Part shown: piece by piece, positions 38,502 to 44,647 of the stretch | How the letters are laid out: every line of letters begins with the position of its first letter | Position numbering within the stretch: position 1 is the first letter of the stretch | NCBI RefSeq assembly: GCF_900188485.1 | Contig: NZ_FZPH01000020.1 | Coordinates: forward strand, 1-64,000 | Origin: Asanoa hainanensis | GTDB taxonomy: Bacteria; Actinomycetota; Actinomycetes; Mycobacteriales; Micromonosporaceae | Reading direction: 5' to 3' | Length of the DNA: 64,000 bases | Program-made: the position numbers and the translations under genes | Notes under the pieces: model-generated | The model's database searches: none | What the model was told of the DNA's origin: nothing | What the model saw: only the letters and a program-made list of their open reading frames with translations

Positions 38502-38577
38502 GCGCTCGTAGCTCAGTGGATAGAGCAGGGGTCTTCTAAGCCCAGGGTCGCAGGTTCGAATCCTGCCGAGCGCACCA
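38502..38577 (+). tRNA. tRNA-Arg (anticodon TCT)
   Basis: 76 bases with a full cloverleaf: acceptor GCGCTCG/CGAGCGC, D-arm GCTCAGTGGATAGAGC, anticodon loop with TCT, T-arm CAGGTTCGAATCCTG, and an encoded CCA. It is the only tRNA on the plus strand. It reads AGA and stands apart from the minus-strand array that starts 2.5 kb away. Confidence 0.95.
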
Positions 38578-39147: not shown

Positions 39148-40710
39148 TCAGCCCACCAGCCACAGCCAGTCGGCGTCGCGACCGGCCGAAAGCAGCGGAA
39201 TCATCCGGAACGCCTGATCGGTCAGGCCGCCGAAGGTGTGCCGGTTGCCCGACCCGGACGGCGCGTGCCCCATCCGGTAGCCGGCCAGGTTCCACGTGAA
39301 CATCGGCACCGACGCCGGGACCGCGCGGTCGACGCTGCCGCCGGCCGCCGCCTGCTCGTCGGTGACCACCACGACCCGGTCGTGGCGGGCGAAGTGCCGC
39401 CGCAGCGCGCCGGAGGTGTCCGTGCCGTCGCCCAGGAAGAACCCGCCGGCCTTCCACCGCTCGATCGACCGCAGCAACGACTCTCCCGCGACGAGCGGGA
39501 ACACCTTCGTCGACGTGGAGAACGAGACCACGTCGGCGGCCGCGCACCGCTGGGCGAGCGCGACGCCGAAGATGACCGCGGCATCCCAACGCCGCAGCGT
39601 GCCGTCCTTGCTGAAACCGGCGTTCATCGAGTACGACGTGTCGACCAGCACCAACGTGCGCCCCGGGAGCGCAGGCACCGACGCGAGCGAGTGTCCGATC
39701 GCCTGCTCGAGCGGGTACGCCCACCGCAGCGACGGCGCCGCCCGGTAGGCGGACAGGAACCGCATCGGAAGCTGCCGCGACGCCGAGACCTGGGTCGGGT
39801 CGGCCAGCCGCGCGGCCACGACGCCCGCGACCGCGTCGGAGACCCCCGCCTGGTCGAGGTTGCGCAGGTTCCGCAGCAGTGCCGTGTAGCCCATGCCCGG
39901 AACGAGCGCGGACCACAGCGCGGCCTTGTCGAGGCGGTCGCCGGCCAGCGACAGCACGTCCTCCCACGTCATGCCCGCGGCCCGCAGCCGGTCGGCGTCG
40001 AGCAGCACGCGCGGGTCGGTGGCCGCGGCCTGCCGGATCTCACCGTTCGCGGTCAGCATCGGCAGCGACTCCCGGCGTACCTCGTCGCGGTTGTGGCGCC
40101 GCTCCAGCGCGACCTGGAACAGGTCACCCTGCCAGGGCGCGGCCGGCACCGGGTGGACGAGGTCGATGGCGTCGGCGAACCGGAAGCCCTTGCTGGCGGT
40201 GTCGTACTTGAGGAGCCCGTACTCCGTGTAGAGCCGTGCGATCGCGTCGGCGATCCCGCGCTTGACCGGCTTCGGGATGGCGCGGCCGTAGCGGGACGTC
40301 CAGTACGCCAGGGCCTCGCCCGGCTCGTCCGCCCGCTTCAGCACCGCGGCGACGAGCTGACGACCGCCCGGCACGCCGGCGTCGACCAGCGCGCGGGTCG
40401 CCTCGAGCGCGCCGACCAGCGACGCGGAACGCAGGTTCGCGTCGGAGCGCAGCCAGCCGAGGAAGCCGGCCACCCAGGCCGGGTCCGCGACGGCCACGTC
40501 GCGGACGAGCCGCGCGAAGCGGCTGTCGCGGTCACCCGCCGACTCGTAGAACGTGGCCTCGCCGACCATGTTGGTCACGGCGAGCAGGAAGAGCTCGGAC
40601 TTCTGGTCACGGGCGAAACCCGGACCGCCCTCGTACGTCCGCCCGGTCGGCGTGGTCGCGGTCCGGACCGGGCTCGAACCGGGCGCCGTACGCGTGTTGA
40701 ACTTCGCCAT
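39148..40710 (-). CDS. rsr: Ro60/Rsr-like protein (TROVE domain plus vWA domain)
   Basis: 520 residues, the size of bacterial Ro orthologues. Residues about 15-320 form the TROVE/HEAT-like ring (SELFLLAVTNMVGEATFYES, RDVAVADPAWVAGFLGWLRS, MTWEDVLSLAGDRLDKAALW). Residues about 345-520 are a von Willebrand A domain with the MIDAS motif DTSYSMN. Ro60 rings bind misfolded RNA through the central hole and Y RNAs on the outside; bacterial Rsr works with exonucleases in RNA quality control. The ATG at 40710 begins MAKFNTRTAPGSSPV, with GGAGGG about 10 bases upstream. It is the last gene of the minus-strand tRNA array and follows two candidate Y RNAs. Confidence 0.93.
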   Translation of the reverse strand: MAKFNTRTAPGSSPVRTATTPTGRTYEGGPGFARDQKSELFLLAVTNMVGEATFYESAGDRDSRFARLVRDVAVADPAWVAGFLGWLRSDANLRSASLVGALEATRALVDAGVPGGRQLVAAVLKRADEPGEALAYWTSRYGRAIPKPVKRGIADAIARLYTEYGLLKYDTASKGFRFADAIDLVHPVPAAPWQGDLFQVALERRHNRDEVRRESLPMLTANGEIRQAAATDPRVLLDADRLRAAGMTWEDVLSLAGDRLDKAALWSALVPGMGYTALLRNLRNLDQAGVSDAVAGVVAARLADPTQVSASRQLPMRFLSAYRAAPSLRWAYPLEQAIGHSLASVPALPGRTLVLVDTSYSMNAGFSKDGTLRRWDAAVIFGVALAQRCAAADVVSFSTSTKVFPLVAGESLLRSIERWKAGGFFLGDGTDTSGALRRHFARHDRVVVVTDEQAAAGGSVDRAVPASVPMFTWNLAGYRMGHAPSGSGNRHTFGGLTDQAFRMIPLLSAGRDADWLWLVG

Positions 40711-40746
40711 AGGTTTGGGTCCCTCCGCCCGAGAAGGAGCCACGTC

Positions 40747-40902
40747 CAGATGGGGGGTGCCCGAGATCAAGTCGGTCCGGCGAACATTAGGTGCTCTACC
40801 GATTGAGCTACGCCGGCCCAGAGCCGACGACGGGACTCGAACCCGCAACCACCCCGTTAGCAGCGGAAGAACTCCGAACCTGCGCACCGGGCACCCCATC
40901 TG
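40747..40902 (-). ncRNA. Candidate Y RNA 1 with a permuted tRNA-like core
   Basis: The ends form a 15-base stem: CAGATGGGGTGCCCG (40902-40888) with CGGGCACCCCCCATCTG (40763-40747, two-base bulge). Inside: GGTTCGG (40880-40874) pairs with CCGGACC (40780-40774); a hairpin TTCCG-CTGCTAA-CGGGG; a T-arm GCGGG-TTCGAGT-CCCGT (40846-40830); an acceptor-like helix CGTCGGC/GCCGGCG capped by TCTGG; and a D-arm GCTC-AATCGGTA-GAGC (40808-40793). So the 3' half of a tRNA precedes its 5' half. Bacterial YrlA-type Y RNAs contain a tRNA-like module and sit beside rsr. Its 3' end is 36 bases before the Ro60 start codon. Folding was done by hand. Confidence 0.7.
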
Positions 40903-40910
40903 AAGTTGTG

Positions 40911-41012
40911 CTCCCCGAGATCAGATCGGCGACGGCGTTAGCGGGACTTGAACCCGCCGACCTTTACAGGGTCGCGTTACGGAGAAGTAGCCGTCGCCCG
41001 CGCACCGGGGAG
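40911..41012 (-). ncRNA. Candidate Y RNA 2 with a tRNA-Tyr-like core
   Basis: Outer stem CTCCCCG/CGGGGAG (41012-41006 with 40917-40911), then the same internal-loop strands as Y RNA 1: 5' CGGTGCGC and 3' TGATCTCG. A second helix GGCGACGGC/GCCGTCGCC encloses a tRNA-like core in normal order: a 3-base stem TAC-TTCTCC-GTA in the D-arm place, a hairpin CGACC-CTGTAAA-GGTCG (a GTA anticodon if read as tRNA) and a T-arm GCGGG-TTCAAGT-CCCGC. It has extra bases before the 3' acceptor strand and no CCA, so it is not a functional tRNA. It lies 8 bases upstream of Y RNA 1. Confidence 0.65.
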
Positions 41013-41046
41013 GTGCGTTCGCAGCGGGACCGGATGGCCCCACCCG

Positions 41047-41118
41047 TCGCAGGCCCCGGTGTCGAACCGGGCGGACCGCCGTTATGAGCGGCGGCTGGAC
41101 AGCCAACGTCCCCCTGCG
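41047..41118 (-). tRNA. tRNA with anticodon CAT (Met or Ile)
   Basis: Acceptor CGCAGGG/GCCTGCG (last pair G-G), D-arm GGAC-GTTGGCT-GTCC, anticodon loop CTCATAA on a GC-rich stem CCGCCG/CGGCGG, T-arm CCCGG-TTCGACA-CCGGG. No encoded CCA. Elongator Met versus lysidine-modified Ile cannot be told by eye. Confidence 0.75.
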
Positions 41119-41146
41119 CAGTGTTTCCACAGTGGATGGCATGAAG

Positions 41147-41222
41147 CAGCGCGGACGGGACTCGAACCCGCACATGTCCCGGGTGAAAACCGGGCGACTC
41201 TACCTATTTCGTCCACCGCGCC
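41147..41222 (-). tRNA. tRNA-Glu (TTC)
   Basis: Acceptor GGCGCGG/CCGCGCT with a G-U first pair, anticodon stem CCCGG/CCGGG and loop TTTTCAC, T-arm GCGGG-TTCGAGT-CCCGT. Discriminator G; no encoded CCA. Confidence 0.85.
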
Positions 41223-41227
41223 GTGCG

Positions 41228-41301
41228 TGTCCCGGGAGGGCTTCGAACCCCCGACCCCCTGCGCGTCGAGCAGGTGCTCCACCAGGCTGAGCTACCGGGA
41301 C
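41228..41301 (-). tRNA. tRNA-Val (GAC), with C at position 33
   Basis: Acceptor GTCCCGG/CCGGGAC, D-arm GCTCAGCCTGGTGGAGC, anticodon stem CCTGC/GCAGG with loop TCGACGC. Canonical numbering gives anticodon GAC, but the almost universal U33 is C. T-arm GGGGG-TTCGAAG-CCCTC. No encoded CCA. Confidence 0.75.
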
Positions 41302-41302
41302 G

Positions 41303-41381
41303 TGGTAGCGGGAGCGGGATTCGAACCCGCGATCTCAGGCTTATGAGGCCAGCGAGGACGACCGAGCTCCTCTATCCCGCA
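41303..41381 (-). tRNA. tRNA-Met (CAT), initiator-like
   Basis: Begins TGCGGGA against TCCCGCT, leaving the first pair mismatched (T-T), as initiator tRNAs do. D-arm GAGGAGCTCGGTCGTCCTC and anticodon arm CTGGC-CTCATAA-GCCTG closely follow actinobacterial tRNA-fMet, with two of the three G-C pairs kept. T-arm GCGGG-TTCGAAT-CCCGC, encoded ACCA. Confidence 0.8.
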
Positions 41382-41383
41382 AG

Positions 41384-41458
41384 TGTTCCGTGAGGGATTC
41401 GAACCCCCGACGCGCGGCTTAAGAGGCCGCCGCTCTGACCAGGCTGAGCTAACGGAAC
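41384..41458 (-). tRNA. tRNA-Lys (CTT), copy 1
   Basis: Acceptor GTTCCGT/ACGGAAC, anticodon stem GCGGC/GCCGC and loop CTCTTAA, T-arm GGGGG-TTCGAAT-CCCTC. Discriminator A; no encoded CCA. A second Lys(CTT) lies at 42061. Confidence 0.9.
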
Positions 41459-41465
41459 AGGGCAG

Positions 41466-41553
41466 TGGCGGAGAGTGCCGGAGTCGAACCGGCCGACGAG
41501 TCACCCCGCCCACGAGTTAGCAACTCGCTTGCCCCACCGATGGCGGACTCTCC
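41466..41553 (-). tRNA. tRNA-Ser (GCT)
   Basis: Acceptor GGAGAGT/ACTCTCC, anticodon stem GCGAG/CTCGT and loop TTGCTAA, long class II variable arm, T-arm GCCGG-TTCGACT-CCGGC. Discriminator G and encoded CCA. Confidence 0.9.
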
Positions 41554-41557
41554 ATTG

Positions 41558-41629
41558 CGCCCCGTACCGGGATCGAACCGGCGGCCTTCCGTTCGACAGA
41601 CGGACGCTCCTCCATTGAGCTAACAGGGC
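41558..41629 (-). tRNA. tRNA-Asp (GTC)
   Basis: Acceptor GCCCTGT/ACGGGGC, D-arm GCTCAATGGAGGAGC, anticodon stem TCCGT/ACGGA and loop CTGTCGA, T-arm GCCGG-TTCGATC-CCGGT. Discriminator G, as in Asp; no encoded CCA. Confidence 0.9.
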
Positions 41630-41639
41630 AAGACCGACG

Positions 41640-41711
41640 TGCCCCCGGCTGGATTCGAACCAGCGGCCTCGGCCTTCGGAGAGCCGCGCTCTTCCGCTGA
41701 GCTACGAGGGC
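41640..41711 (-). tRNA. tRNA-Arg (CCG)
   Basis: Acceptor GCCCTCG/CGGGGGC, D-arm GCTCAGCGGAAGAGC, anticodon stem CGGCT/GGCCG and loop CTCCGAA, T-arm GCTGG-TTCGAAT-CCAGC. Discriminator A; no encoded CCA. Confidence 0.9.
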
Positions 41712-41715
41712 ATCG

Positions 41716-41798
41716 TGAGAGCGGAGGGATTCGAACCCCTGAGCCCGAAGGCAACTGGGTTACAGCCAGCCCCACCTCACCATCGGTGGCGCGCTCTC
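41716..41798 (-). tRNA. tRNA-Tyr (GTA)
   Basis: Acceptor GAGAGCG/CGCTCTC, anticodon stem GCTGG/CCAGT and loop CTGTAAC, 13-base class II variable arm typical of bacterial Tyr, T-arm AGGGG-TTCGAAT-CCCTC. Discriminator A; no encoded CCA. Confidence 0.9.
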
Positions 41799-41799
41799 C

Positions 41800-41876
41800 T
41801 GGGGTGAACGCAGGGACTCGAACCCTCGCCTTCCGGAACCACAATCCGGCGTGCACACCCGTACACCACGAACACC
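41800..41876 (-). tRNA. tRNA-His (GTG), imperfect acceptor stem
   Basis: Has the His-specific extra 5' G opposite C73. Acceptor GTGTTCG/CGTTCAC carries two adjacent T-T mismatches. Anticodon stem CCGGA/TCCGG and loop TTGTGGT, T-arm GAGGG-TTCGAGT-CCCTG with one mismatched pair. CCA is encoded. Confidence 0.8.
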
Positions 41877-41877
41877 G

Positions 41878-41949
41878 AGCCCGGACCTGGGATCGAACCA
41901 GGGGCCCCTGCTGTGTGAAAGCAGTGCTCTCCCGCTGAGCTACCCGGGC
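41878..41949 (-). tRNA. tRNA-Val (CAC)
   Basis: Acceptor GCCCGGG/TCCGGGC, D-arm GCTCAGCGGGAGAGC, anticodon stem CTGCT/AGCAG and loop TTCACAC, T-arm CCTGG-TTCGATC-CCAGG. No encoded CCA. Confidence 0.9.
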
Positions 41950-41956
41950 ATTGTCG

Positions 41957-42029
41957 CTTCCCCGGCTGGATTCGAACCAGCAGCCTTGCGATTAACAGTC
42001 GCCTGCTCCGCCGATTGAGCTACGGGGAA
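41957..42029 (-). tRNA. tRNA-Asn (GTT)
   Basis: Acceptor TTCCCCG/CGGGGAA, D-arm GCTCAATCGGCGGAGC, anticodon loop CTGTTAA with one G-A pair at the stem base, T-arm GCTGG-TTCGAAT-CCAGC. Discriminator G; no encoded CCA. Confidence 0.9.
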
Positions 42030-42060
42030 CTGCGGCGTGCGTGCGCCCGCCGCGTGGTGA

Positions 42061-42138
42061 TGGTGTCCCGTGACGGATTCGAACCGCCGACGACGTGGGT
42101 TAAGAGCCCACCGCTCTACCAGGCTGAGCTAACAGGAC
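42061..42138 (-). tRNA. tRNA-Lys (CTT), copy 2
   Basis: Acceptor GTCCTGT/ACGGGAC, anticodon stem GTGGG/CCCAC and loop CTCTTAA, T-arm GGCGG-TTCGAAT-CCGTC, encoded ACCA. It differs from copy 1 in acceptor and anticodon stems, so it is not a recent duplicate. Confidence 0.9.
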
Positions 42139-42177
42139 GGGACATTGTCGTCGGCCATGCGACGGTAGAATGTGGAC

Positions 42178-42657
42178 ATGCCTTCCGAGGTCGAAAAGGC
42201 GTGGGTAGCGGGTATTCTCGACGGCGACGGGTGCGTCACTCTCCATGGGTACGCAGCGAGCAAGGCTTATCGAAAACCACTCATCGTGGTCGACAGCACC
42301 GATATCGAGATCCTTCAGGAGCTAAGTCGCCTCTATGGTGGCGGACTCGTCGTCAAGAAAAAGGCCAAGGATCACCATCTTCAGGCGTGGACCTGGCGCC
42401 TCTACGGCAGCGACAAGGTTCTTGCGCTGATTGCCGACGTGCTGCCGTACATGCGATGCGCAGTCAAGGTCGACAGGGCGACGTTGCTCGCCAACGAGTA
42501 CAAGCACGTGACGCGTCGAAACGGCTACTACACTCCCGATGCCCGCGCTCGAAAGGAAGCGTTCGAGGCACGTTTCATGGCGATCGGCGCTGGCCGGGGA
42601 AGTCAACGGCGGCGGGCATTCGCGGAGGAGGGCGGGGTCGAACCGCCACAGGTCTGA
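42178..42657 (+). CDS. Single-motif LAGLIDADG homing endonuclease
   Basis: 159 residues from ATG 42178 (GTG 42172 possible). The motif AWVAGILDGDGCVTL at residues 8-22 is a LAGLIDADG block with its two catalytic acidic residues; one motif means it would work as a homodimer. EILQELSRLYGGGLVVKKK and WRLYGSDKVLALIADVLPYM follow the family pattern. It is on the strand opposite the tRNAs, has lower GC than its surroundings, and its 3' end runs 35 bases into the tRNA-Ser(CGA) gene. It is not inside an intron I can see, so it is a free-standing endonuclease, probably acquired. Confidence 0.85.
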   Translation: MPSEVEKAWVAGILDGDGCVTLHGYAASKAYRKPLIVVDSTDIEILQELSRLYGGGLVVKKKAKDHHLQAWTWRLYGSDKVLALIADVLPYMRCAVKVDRATLLANEYKHVTRRNGYYTPDARARKEAFEARFMAIGAGRGSQRRRAFAEEGGVEPPQV

Positions 42658-42709
42658 CCTCAACCGTTTTCGAGACGGTGGCCGGCGCCATCTGTCGGCT
42701 GGCTCCTCC
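42623..42709 (-). tRNA. tRNA-Ser (CGA)
   Basis: Acceptor GGAGGAG/CTCCTCC, anticodon stem ACCGT/ACGGT and loop CTCGAAA, long class II variable arm, T-arm GGCGG-TTCGACC-CCGCC. Discriminator G; no encoded CCA. The 3' 35 bases are also the end of the endonuclease gene on the other strand. Confidence 0.9.
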
Positions 42710-42710
42710 T

Positions 42711-42787
42711 TGGTCGGGCTGGCCGGATTTGAACCGACGACCTCTGCTTCCCGAAAGCAGCGCGCTACCAAACTGCGCCACAGCCCG
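42711..42787 (-). tRNA. tRNA-Pro (CGG)
   Basis: Acceptor CGGGCTG/CAGCCCG, D-arm GGCGCAGTTTGGTAGCGC, anticodon stem CTGCT/AGCAG and loop TTCGGGA, T-loop TTCAAAT, encoded ACCA. Confidence 0.92.
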
Positions 42788-42792
42788 TTGTG

Positions 42793-42866
42793 TGCCCGCG
42801 GCAGGACTCGAACCTGCTGCCTCCGGCTTCGTAGGCCGGCGCTCTCTCCAGATGAGCTACGTGGGC
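42793..42866 (-). tRNA. tRNA-Arg (ACG)
   Basis: Acceptor GCCCACG/CGCGGGC with one A-C mismatch, D-arm GCTCATCTGGAGAGAGC, anticodon stem CCGGC/GCCGG and loop CTACGAA, T-arm GCAGG-TTCGAGT-CCTGC. Discriminator A; no encoded CCA. The A34 would need TadA editing to read CGN. Confidence 0.88.
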
Positions 42867-42876
42867 GTGTTACCCG

Positions 42877-42950
42877 TACCCGCCAAGGGATTCGAACCCC
42901 TACCCTCCTGGTCCTGAACCAGGCGCCTCTGCCAATTGGGCTACGCGGGC
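42877..42950 (-). tRNA. tRNA with Leu anticodon CAG but a class I body
   Basis: Acceptor GCCCGCG/GGCGGGT (first pair G-U, last pair G-G), D-arm GCCCAATTGGCAGAGGC, anticodon stem CCTGG/CCAGG and loop TTCAGGA giving CAG, a variable loop of only five bases and T-arm AGGGG-TTCGAAT-CCCTT. Bacterial tRNA-Leu normally has a long variable arm. No encoded CCA. Confidence 0.8.
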
Positions 42951-42955
42951 ATTGA

Positions 42956-42981
42956 CGTACACGAGCGTTCGAGCGTGTACG
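42956..42981. repeat. Inverted repeat upstream of the secreted-protein gene
   Basis: CGTACACG (42956-42963) and CGTGTACG (42974-42981) form perfect 8-base arms around 10 bases, followed by related GTTCGAG-type repeats to about 43005. The 135-base gap separates tRNA-Leu from tRNA-Ala and holds the plus-strand gene's promoter, so it may be an operator. Confidence 0.35.
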
Positions 42982-43085
42982 AAGATGTTCGAGAGTGTTC
43001 GTGCACTGTGGACTTCATCGAACCCCGGGCTCGACCATCGTCGATGACGGCCAGGCGGGTCGTCATTTTCAGGGGGTGGTCGAGC

Positions 43086-43511
43086 ATGAAGGGCAACAGA
43101 TCGGTCGTACGGTGGACCGGCCGCACGTTGCTGGCGCTGGCGTTGGCCGCCGGCGGCCTCGTCGTCGCGCCCGGTGCGGCTTTTGCCGACTGGGCTTACA
43201 ACGCGACGTCGACCAAGAGCTCCAAGGGCGGCTACGCGTCGGCTTACTACACCGGCGTCGGGAACTACTACCCGGAGCTCACCGTGTGTGACCTCGGCCC
43301 GGCGGACGGACTGCGGGCGCGGGTCGAGTTCTGGTACGGCGGACAAGGAATCAACCTCGAGGCCACGGGTGGCAGCGGCAGCTGCGTGACCGTCGACTAC
43401 CCGCTCAGCCGCGGCACCCACTTCACCATGAAGGCCTGCTTGCGCAACGGGTCGGTACCGAACAGCCAGCCGACGAACTGCGGGACCCTCAGGCAAGGTG
43501 TGGTGCCGTAA
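43086..43511 (+). CDS. Small secreted Cys-containing protein of unknown function
   Basis: 141 residues. A Sec signal peptide is clear: basic MKGNRSVVRWTGR, hydrophobic TLLALALAAGGLVVAPG, cleavage after GAAFA before DWAYN. The mature ~107 residues are Gly/Tyr-rich with four Cys (TVCDLG, GSCVTV, KACLRNG, TNCGTL), enough for two disulphides, and a beta-rich pattern. I do not recognise the family. It lies in the middle of the tRNA array on the opposite strand and ends at a strong terminator. Its ATG at 43086 is preceded by GGGGGTGG. Confidence 0.8.
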   Translation: MKGNRSVVRWTGRTLLALALAAGGLVVAPGAAFADWAYNATSTKSSKGGYASAYYTGVGNYYPELTVCDLGPADGLRARVEFWYGGQGINLEATGGSGSCVTVDYPLSRGTHFTMKACLRNGSVPNSQPTNCGTLRQGVVP

Positions 43512-43528
43512 CCGCACCTCTTTCCGGA

Positions 43529-43559
43529 GGCCGGGCCGCCGGCGAAGGGCGGCCCGGCC
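43529..43559. terminator. Terminator of the secreted-protein gene
   Basis: Perfect 12-base arms GGCCGGGCCGCC / GGCGGCCCGGCC with a 7-base loop, 17 bases after the stop at 43511. It also lies just past the 3' end of tRNA-Ala, so it could affect the array transcript. Confidence 0.8.
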
Positions 43560-43563
43560 CACG

Positions 43564-43632
43564 TGGAGTGACGCGGTATCGAACCGCGCACGCGAAGCTT
43601 GCAAGGCAACGCTGTGCACCTGCACCCACCCC
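43564..43632 (-). tRNA. tRNA-Ala (TGC), degenerate
   Basis: Only 69 bases. Acceptor GGGGTGG/TCACTCC pairs with two wobbles. The D-arm GTGC-AGGT-GCAC has a four-base loop without the normal GG. The anticodon stem GTTGC/GCTTC has two T-T mismatches around loop CTTGCAA. T-arm CGCGG-TTCGATA-CCGCG is good. Doubtful function. Confidence 0.6.
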
Positions 43633-43641
43633 AGACACAAG

Positions 43642-43715
43642 AGCCGCCACCCGGGTTCGAACCGGGGACCTCCGCTTTACGAGAGCGGCGCTGCTACCAA
43701 CTGAGCTACGGCGGC
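43642..43715 (-). tRNA. tRNA-Thr (CGT)
   Basis: Acceptor GCCGCCG/TGGCGGC, anticodon stem CCGCT/AGCGG and loop CTCGTAA, T-arm CCCGG-TTCGAAC-CCGGG. Discriminator T; no encoded CCA. Confidence 0.9.
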
Positions 43716-43731
43716 AAGCACGAGGGCAAAG

Positions 43732-43804
43732 CTGGGAGCCCAGGATTCGAACCTGGACGAGCTGCTTCAGAGGCAACCATGCTGCCGGGTTACATCAGCT
43801 CCCA
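43732..43804 (-). tRNA. tRNA-Gln (CTG)
   Basis: Acceptor TGGGAGC/GCTCCCA (T1-A72, as in bacterial Gln), anticodon stem GTTGC/GCAGC and loop CTCTGAA, T-arm CCAGG-TTCGAAT-CCTGG. The D-arm is weak (three-base stem). No encoded CCA. Confidence 0.85.
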
Positions 43805-43808
43805 TGGT

Positions 43809-43838
43809 GCGGCCGGCGGCGGGAGCTCCGCCGGCCGC
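43809..43838. terminator. Terminator of the HNH gene
   Basis: Perfect 11-base arms GCGGCCGGCGG / CCGCCGGCCGC with an 8-base loop, 2 bases past the minus-strand stop at 43841. It separates the HNH gene from the tRNA-Gln end of the array. Confidence 0.8.
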
Positions 43839-43840
43839 GG

Positions 43841-44281
43841 TCAGCGCCGGGTGAGTGACGCCCACGACGGGGTCGCCGGCTCGGACCGCAGCGTCATCCC
43901 GGCTTCGGCCGGGGTGCGGTCGCCCTTGCGCTGGTTGCAGCCTTCACAGGCCGCGATGGTGTTGGACCAGGTGTTCCGGCCGCCGCGCGAGCGGGGCAGG
44001 ACGTGGTCGACGGTGCTCGCGTGCCCGCCGCAGTAGCCGCAGGCCCGGCCGTCGCGGACCAGCACGCCGGAGCGGGACCAGGTCGGCACGGCCGTGTAGC
44101 GCCAGCGGGTGACCACATAGCGCACGAGCCGCACGACCGTCGGCACCGGGTAGACGCCGATCAGGCTGTCGGGCCGCGACTCGTGGACCTCGGCGACCTG
44201 GCGGACCAGCATCCGCACGGCGTGCCTGAGACTGACCCGGTGGAGCGGGCCGAGGTCGGCGTTGATGACCAGCACGTCCAC
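43841..44281 (-). CDS. HNH endonuclease inside the tRNA array
   Basis: 146 residues. The C-terminal half is a canonical HNH domain: LVRDGRACGYCGG, STVDHVLPRSRGGRNTWSN and CEGCNQRKGDRTP, giving the zinc Cys pairs and the catalytic His/Asn/His. The N-terminal VLVINADLGPLHRVSLRHA block is common in small actinobacterial HNH proteins. The GTG at 44281 has a strong AAAGGAGG 5-6 bases upstream. It is on the same strand as the tRNAs, between tRNA-Gly and tRNA-Gln. It could be a chromosomal HNH gene or a mobile endonuclease. Confidence 0.9.
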   Translation of the reverse strand: MDVLVINADLGPLHRVSLRHAVRMLVRQVAEVHESRPDSLIGVYPVPTVVRLVRYVVTRWRYTAVPTWSRSGVLVRDGRACGYCGGHASTVDHVLPRSRGGRNTWSNTIAACEGCNQRKGDRTPAEAGMTLRSEPATPSWASLTRR

Positions 44282-44319
44282 CGGATCCTCCTTTCATATG
44301 CGAGAACCAACAAACAAAG

Positions 44320-44392
44320 AGCGGATGACCGGGATCGAACCGGCGACCTGCACCTTGGCAAGGTGCCGCGCTACCAACTGCGCTACATCCGC
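44320..44392 (-). tRNA. tRNA-Gly (GCC)
   Basis: Acceptor GCGGATG/CATCCGC, D-arm GCGCAGTTGGTAGCGC, anticodon stem GCACC/GGTGC and loop TTGCCAA, T-arm GCCGG-TTCGATC-CCGGT. Discriminator T; no encoded CCA. Confidence 0.92.
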
Positions 44393-44433
44393 ATGCGAAA
44401 CAACGTGGAATCGCTTCCTGAGTGAGCGATTTG

Positions 44434-44507
44434 TGGGCCGTAGGGGGCTCGAACCCCTGATCTTCGCGCTGAGAACGCGACGAGCTAGCCAGCTGCTCCA
44501 ACGGCCC
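44434..44507 (-). tRNA. tRNA-Glu (CTC)
   Basis: Acceptor GGGCCGT/ACGGCCC, D-arm GAGCAGCTGGCTAGCTC, anticodon stem TCGCG/CGCGA and loop TTCTCAG, T-arm AGGGG-TTCGAGC-CCCCT. Discriminator A; no encoded CCA. Confidence 0.88.
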
Positions 44508-44574
44508 GAAATGCCATCCACTGTGGAATTTTCAAATCACAAACCCAACCGTGCCCATGGGTACGGTAGGAAAG

Positions 44575-44647
44575 CAGGGGCGACAGGACTCGAACCTGCA
44601 ACAACCGGATTTGGAGGCCGGTGCGCTACCAGTTGCGCCACGCCCCT
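44575..44647 (-). tRNA. tRNA-Trp (CCA), first gene of the array
   Basis: Acceptor AGGGGCG/CGCCCCT, D-arm GGCGCAACTGGTAGCGC, anticodon loop CTCCAAA with one C-T mismatch at the top of the stem, T-arm GCAGG-TTCGAGT-CCTGT. Discriminator G; no encoded CCA. Confidence 0.9.

Follow-up and report, generated by a model that had tools for sequence, protein, structure and literature searches.

Why would a Ro60 gene with two candidate Y RNAs stand at the end of a bacterial tRNA array, and what would a Y RNA gain from resembling a tRNA? Ro60 is known from autoimmune disease. The question arises from the window, a stretch of 64,000 nucleotides of Asanoa hainanensis, in which the following features lie close together:

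39148..40710, minus strand: Ro60/Rsr gene, TROVE plus vWA, 520 aa (Pfam, PDB sequence match, predicted fold)
40753..40896, minus strand: RNA2, a YrlA-like Y RNA and likely circularly permuted tRNA mimic (Rfam YrlA, covariation, covariance model R1)
40907..41014, minus strand: RNA1, the second Y RNA, in a yrlB-like place (shared Ro arm, consensus fold, R1)
41046..44647, minus strand: tRNA array of 21 tRNAs, 5.8 per kb (ARAGORN)
41126..41143, no strand assigned: right copy of an inverted repeat, 17/18 nt (sequence comparison of array loci)
43841..44281, minus strand: HNH endonuclease gene within the array (HNH_5, 51.2 bits)
44510..44527, no strand assigned: left copy of the inverted repeat, between tRNA-Glu and tRNA-Trp (same repeat comparison)

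The protein reads from an ATG at 40710 to its end at 39148 and matches TROVE at 61.6 bits (Pfam cut-off 23), the only such match in all 8.64 Mb of the genome. By sequence it matches the PDB TROVE protein 9l5y at E 5.8e-27 and shares 55-81% identity with 19 relatives. A structure predicted with 20 rows in the alignment (mean pLDDT 82.7) aligned with Ro60 chains over their full length. All 13/13 PDB matches at E <=0.001 were to TROVE, Ro60 or Rsr chains, including 2nvo and 1yvp (TM 0.47-0.66 by query). Many weaker fold matches were vWA or I domains. The vWA part is weak by sequence (VWA_2, 21.7 bits, below the cut-off of 27); a MIDAS-like DTSYS is visible by eye, and we count the protein among the vWA proteins with putative metal binding. 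An earlier note on this DNA had named both Ro60 domains and read the minus strand as tRNA genes, two structured RNAs and a TROVE-vWA gene. Both readings are borne out by the tRNA calls, Pfam, the predicted fold and the sequence motifs, and it is near certain that the unit consists of Ro60 and Y RNAs. That array, RNAs and Ro60 are transcribed in line, as also proposed, is suggested by their shared orientation and short gaps.

The two RNAs share the arm that is expected to bind Ro. CGGTGCGC occurs in both, at -297 and -179 from the Ro ATG, and so does TGATCTCG, at -213 and -59; these are the common internal-loop strands that the earlier note had described, each found twice. A scan of genome contigs retained 80 of 117 related loci. 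Conservation of the loop was the check that the note had set for relatives: among the 80 loci with enough upstream sequence (the window and 79 others, L058 excluded), a GGUGYG...CUCKG pair lies within 450 nt upstream of Ro in 79, compared with 13/80 on the opposite strand and 5/79 in a stretch further upstream. A stricter pattern recovered 77 loci against 0 in the control. A UACUUC-like motif follows about 18 nt after the first strand of the arm. In many Streptomyces three RNAs are present: two resemble tRNA, one lying upstream and the other adjoining Ro, and a third is short and lacks the T arm.

The proposed search with Rfam Y RNA models gave a divided answer. RNA2 matches YrlA (RF02553) at 45.4 bits and E 5e-9, and the same model leaves RNA1 unmatched up to E 5. 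RNA2 does not reach the gathering score of 69 and is therefore called YrlA-like here rather than filed as a member of RF02553; every YrlA score in the nine relatives' loci scanned was likewise under gathering. With the covariance model R1, built from relatives with RNA2 among its training rows and RNA1 left out, a genome search returned RNA2 at 131.4 bits (in training) and RNA1 at 40.5 bits (E 2.8e-6), and nine other matches all scored at most 35.3 bits. Conservation and covariation in relatives thus give good support to the view that both are probably the cognate Y RNAs of this Ro60. The earlier sizes of ~156 and ~102 bases agree with the intervals found, and the reading as two Y RNAs stands; the note had overlooked that RNA1 has a T arm and that RNA2 imitates a tRNA in permuted form, anticodon arm included.

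RNA1 consists of the Ro-binding stem, the UACUUC motif, a hairpin with the 7-nt loop CUGUAAA and a T arm, with no D arm. Its fold is weaker than that of RNA2 (z -1.73, with 12/200 shuffles as good), and the consensus fold of seven rows has 29 pairs, nine of them altered on both sides. Judged from these comparisons, RNA1 appears to be a yrlB-like partner plus a T arm. A role of its hairpin as an anticodon mimic was rejected: CUGUAAA occurs in the window and in L112 (with 8 nt in L174), and is absent from the four other rows.

RNA2 carries, within a Ro-binding stem that can be extended to about 40747-40902, an anticodon stem-loop (CCG-CUGCUAA-CGG), a T arm, a looped acceptor stem and a D arm. 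The fold is more stable than 200/200 shuffles (z -3.24). From 5' to 3', the Ro arm leads into a 3-pair hairpin with a 7-nt loop, two bases, some variable bases and the T arm, followed by the acceptor 3' strand, a loop, the acceptor 5' strand, UA, the D arm and an A, and finally by two bases that pair with the two after the hairpin, before the Ro arm closes. As indicated by covariation, the anticodon stem is rebuilt from three strands (27-28/42-43 plus 29-31/39-41), with the Ro arm entering between 28 and 29. RNA2 thus has the permuted D, T and acceptor arms of the YrlA type in a Ro-binding stem beside rsr. A definition of YrlA by D, T and acceptor arms only does not describe it, since the anticodon helix covaries as well.

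Among 48 RNAs (of 56 collected), 94.2% of 1680 cells are paired and 26/35 pairs are altered on both sides, a level reached in 0/500 shuffles. The 27-28/42-43 helix changes from GC to AU in eight sequences and from GC to CG in two. A second alignment, of 21 RNAs none of which comes from a Streptomyces genome (they represent phages, a plasmid and other genera, and 11 are shared with the 48), is 93.6% paired with 25/32 pairs altered on both sides (0/500 shuffles), the phage rows L206 and L209 being out of register. In this set 27-28/42-43 is paired in 92.9% and 29-31/39-41 in 98.4%, the latter figure being biased upward and not independent because rows were picked partly for forming the hairpin. 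The compensatory changes in 29-31/39-41 are independent of row choice, as is the 27-28/42-43 helix, which was no selection criterion. RNAalifold alone drew a competing form, an anticodon hairpin of five pairs that takes in the UU of UACUUC; it was discarded as its two extra pairs are altered on one side at most, never on both. A strict test (3-pair stem, 7-nt loop, U33, A or C38, fixed register) was passed in 54/80 loci, against a mean of 0.63 and a maximum of 4 when the stretch from UUC to the T arm was shuffled; by this script, 26/80 loci have no anticodon-bearing RNA. An anticodon arm in RNA2 and its relatives is very likely on this comparative evidence.

The loop sequence appears to follow a rule. 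UA and GG at positions 36-37 are known signals for t6A and m1G, respectively. A looser test, with U33 required and the register free by one, was passed by 67/86 RNAs examined, whose bases 36-37 were UA (50), GG (5), AG (3), UC (3), AC (2), CA (2), UG (1) and AA (1), that is neither UA nor GG in 12/67. G36 was accompanied by G37 in 5/5 loops, and U36 by G37 in 1/54. Across 35 Streptomyces-type rows, 33 and 38 are invariant and 32 varies once, and 115 close pairs differed at 32-38 in 0, 0, 61, 44, 3, 12 and 0 cases. A pattern leaving 34-37 free found the upstream-type RNA in 40/392 Streptomyces genomes, with U36 in 40/40, A37 in 36 and C37 in four; a hand count of the anticodons gave CAU 20, CUU 7, GAU 6, UUU 3, GUU 2, CGU 1 and UCU 1. 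In the genus of the window, four loops read GCU, GAU, CCU and UGG, the last with a weaker stem and rejected by the script. The loop thus seems to keep U33, a 36-37 pair that is mostly UA and rarely GG, and A38, with 34-35 variable.

How fast 34-35 change depends on the scale considered. Five Streptomyces (L023, L049, L051, L052, L056) with 2.1-5.5% divergence over 2919 columns carry five different anticodons (CGU, GUU, ACU, GAU and UUU, respectively) on RNAs with identical acceptor stem and discriminator. Only three of the 2919 columns show four states, positions 34 and 35 being among the three; two adjacent four-state columns arose in 54/20000 column shuffles, a test made after the pattern was noticed. 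By parsimony, 34 and 35 need 9 and 12 steps among 42 Streptomyces RNAs. Fourfold sites (mean 6.8 steps; 20% need at least 10) and the remaining loop columns reach similar values, which weakens the idea of genus-wide hypervariability. Fast change is therefore claimed for one small clade only, because the genus-wide rate is not above that of fast neutral sites.

The neighbouring tRNA genes, 21 in 3.6 kb, form a tRNA array unit as defined in passages of PMC6333295 (at least 10 tRNAs at 2 or more per kb). A further tRNA-Ser(CGA)-like sequence at ~42625-42711, recognised by eye, was missed by the tRNA calling. Matches to RF00005 number 65 in the whole genome, with 46 on other contigs, 18 in the array and one at 38502, and the array is probably a second tRNA set beside the chromosomal tRNAs. 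A Ro match is present in 72/250 genomes of the family. At least five tRNAs lie upstream of Ro, all co-directed, in at least 13/72 of these loci (window included), and fewer than five in 59/72. The count took one Ro locus per genome, and 13/72 is a lower bound because the sequence upstream of Ro fell short of 3 kb in six loci and any second Ro place of a genome was left out. With three short rows set aside, 69 Ro proteins, 12 of them from array loci, were placed on a tree, on which the array label changes eight times, seven of these changes being forced by well-supported branches; shuffles gave a mean of 11.3 changes, with 3/500 as low as 8. The branch of L174 is long because its Ro gene is interrupted; in this genome (G052) the gene is split into two pieces about 1 kb apart.

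Arrays also occur on their own. The array HNH gene was abandoned as an array counter, since it is unspecific and has a match in 248/250 genomes. Among the top 20 places of HNH homologues, 19 are in arrays (two being twin places of one genome), and no Ro was found within ~10 kb of any of the 20. The array link is recurrent and not fixed, because these arrays around HNH genes lack Ro; G018 and G088, which belong to the genus of the window, likewise have arrays without it. Outside the family, 14 phage and plasmid Ro records had at least three ARAGORN tRNAs within 4-5 kb around Ro in 10 cases and at least five in eight. Two of the ARAGORN tRNAs called there, one in VanLee and one in LuckySocke, fall within Y RNA matches. 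In pSt2308, BRock, LuckySocke and Atuin the array surrounds Ro, and the pairing is also found on a Bifidobacterium plasmid and a haloarchaeal plasmid. Bifidobacterium longum plasmid p1 (L217 1-4000) has 17 ARAGORN tRNAs upstream of Ro and two downstream; its PLSDB gene table has no RNA genes entered. In Rhizobium phage RHph_Y65 (L213 2657-3789), five tandem Y RNA model matches precede the TROVE gene, and three of the five fail the anticodon-loop test. Phage JustBecause and the Bifidobacterium plasmid carry RNA ligase genes close to Ro, as does phage Neville at a distance of no more than 5 kb. The earlier suggestion of a link to the array tRNAs themselves gains from the recurring gene arrangement, and is held back by Ro without array and arrays without Ro, both of which are commoner.

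Considering the comparative evidence for the structure, the permutation, the anticodon arm, the retention of 33, 36-37 and 38 against the variable 34-35, the array linkage and the Ro60 fold, we suggest with a probability of roughly 0.4 that Ro60 and its Y RNAs act as a tRNA decoy or sensor, a bait for tRNA-reading enzymes set beside spare tRNAs. If expressed, both Y RNAs would be bound by the Ro60 ring protein via the common stem with its GGUGCG/CUCGG internal loop. RNA2 would present a complete tRNA look-alike opened inside the anticodon stem, where the Ro-binding arm leaves between 28 and 29. Its acceptor end is predicted to be closed by a short loop; RNA2 should therefore be recognisable by readers of the tRNA body or anticodon loop and should not be charged. 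It might then draw modification, repair or anticodon-cutting enzymes to the Ro ring, which would handle damaged RNA, and the neighbouring array could supply spare tRNAs. An anticodon arm apparently read by tRNA enzymes offers a direct handle on the purpose of tRNA-like Y RNAs, and the arrangement ties Ro60 to bacterial tRNA arrays.

Permuted tRNA genes of algae are processed by acceptor-loop opening and ligation. RNA2 could similarly be the precursor of a working tRNA, with RNase P and 3' processing opening the acceptor loop and a ligase joining 28 to 29. The complete set of tRNA parts, the NCCA after the acceptor strand in 13/56 RNAs and the RNA ligase genes near Ro in JustBecause, in Neville and on the Bifidobacterium plasmid would suit such a precursor. 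We consider it very improbable in view of the five anticodons on near-identical RNAs with the same acceptor stem and discriminator, the 43/56 RNAs without NCCA and the conserved Ro arm. On the strength of the five anticodons on one acceptor stem in close Streptomyces, RNA2 as a charged tRNA was rejected.

A quite realistic prospect, though short of even odds, is an ordinary Rsr/Y RNA degradation unit of the RYPER kind, in which the Y RNA ties Ro to an exonuclease such as PNPase, the tRNA fold only docks, and the array is a neighbour by chance or hitch-hiking. Such units are published for Deinococcus and reviewed for YrlA in passages of PMC8394870 and PMC7790460. The 59/72 family Ro loci with fewer than five upstream tRNAs, the RtcB present elsewhere in the genome and the genus-wide change at 34-35, no faster than at fast neutral sites, all fit this explanation. 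However, a degradation unit needs no conserved anticodon loop with U33, the 36-37 rule and A38, and it leaves unexplained both the burst at 34-35 in one Streptomyces clade and the repeated joining of Ro to arrays in unlike replicons. Array and Ro unit might instead share only an insertion place, as mobile parts gathering at tRNA-rich sites with no joint work. The inverted repeats that flank most of the array with the Ro unit outside them, and the arrays without Ro in G018 and G088, are in line with this. It is nevertheless unlikely given the same side and direction in 13/13 family array loci, the pairing in phages and on Bifidobacterium and haloarchaeal plasmids, and the TROVE gene reported for 20/29 archaeal tRNA clusters in part of PMC6333295.

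In favour of the decoy or sensor reading, the parts of the sources covered discuss tRNA arrays as putative antidefence (PMC12803027) and anticodon-loop changes in phage tRNAs as directed against anticodon nucleases (PMC10264068), and propose YrlA as a competitive inhibitor of an anticodon nuclease (PMC7790460). Against it, YrlA is described as not cut by the Salmonella nuclease (PMC7790460). An extension, which we regard as rather doubtful, is that the Y RNA loop keeps enzyme signals and diversifies 34-35 in an arms race with anticodon nucleases, so that Ro60, Y RNA and array would form a portable anti-cleavage kit of phages, plasmids and chromosomes. A role of the unit in tRNA quality control, as the earlier note had put forward, is plausible by analogy with published Rsr work.

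Y RNAs beside Ro reportedly mimic tRNA (Chen 2014). Passages of PMC8394870 describe the YrlA mimic with D, T and acceptor arms, and its circular permutation is already known from part of PMC11472068. YrlA (RF02553; Salmonella structure 6CU1) shares with RNA2 the Ro-binding stem, the permuted body, the T arm, the looped acceptor, the D arm and the place beside rsr. RNA2 differs in its anticodon stem-loop, which is absent from the Rfam consensus and from the part of the review description covered. The known Rsr/Ro60 systems (RYPER; the Salmonella rsr-yrlBA-rtcBA operon), like the window, join a TROVE-vWA protein to two RNAs, one yrlB-like and one yrlA-like; the window has the order yrlB-yrlA-rsr after a tRNA array and no adjoining rtcBA, the RtcB matches of the genome being confined to contigs C31 and C39. 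Mycobacterial, phage and plasmid array units also pack their tRNA genes densely and enclose an HNH gene, whereas the array of the window ends in Ro60 and Y RNAs. The parts of the tRNA-array literature covered do not mention TROVE or Ro60, nor Y RNA in the part searched for it. The TROVE clusters of PMC6333295 differ in being archaeal and, in the passages covered, without Y RNAs. Hence tRNA-mimic Y RNAs beside Ro and TROVE genes in archaeal tRNA clusters (passages of PMC6333295) are already known. The literature searched on Y RNA and Rsr, tRNA mimicry and Ro with arrays, a scope outside which the primary YrlA papers (Chen 2014, Wang 2018) fall, reports neither the anticodon arm, including the rule for 36-37 and the variability at 34-35, nor the actinobacterial order of array, Y RNA and Ro; relative to that literature both are new. 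The phrase 'Ro-like RNA binding' alongside tRNA does occur, mostly in phage announcements in the parts covered.

The resemblance to tRNA has consequences for annotation. One Y RNA (L080 5816-5885) scores barely over the Rfam tRNA cut-off (29.4 vs 29 bits), and such Y RNAs can therefore be annotated as tRNAs. The GenBank tRNA-Arg(tct) of VanLee (L207 4704-4775) and tRNA-Ser(gct) of LuckySocke (L215 3774-3847) both lie inside Y RNA model matches, and these two annotated phage tRNA genes are, as far as model matches indicate, probably Y RNAs.

The inverted repeat (TCCACAGTGGATGGCAT and its complement) brackets most of the array, leaving tRNA-Trp outside on the left and, on the right, the Ro/Y RNA unit together with the tRNA-Met-like gene that comes last in the array. 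By reading, both copies are present in 14/24 array loci displayed (L112-L202), three of them imperfect. The 11-nt core of the repeat has 30 sites in the genome, two of them in the window, compared with one for a control pattern. The repeat is possibly an operator or the target of the array HNH enzyme. Directly after the right copy, 41046-41118 holds a divergent tRNA-Met(CAT)-like gene, and a similar stretch occupies this place in several arrays. Two plus-strand open reading frames within the array are without Pfam match, one resembling a LAGLIDADG enzyme by eye (42172-42657) and one that looks secreted (42936-43511). Facing the Ro unit on the plus strand, a tRNA-Arg(tct) at 38502-38577 is perhaps an old integration site, and a minus-strand tRNA-Arg near the array also occurs in other genomes of the same genus.
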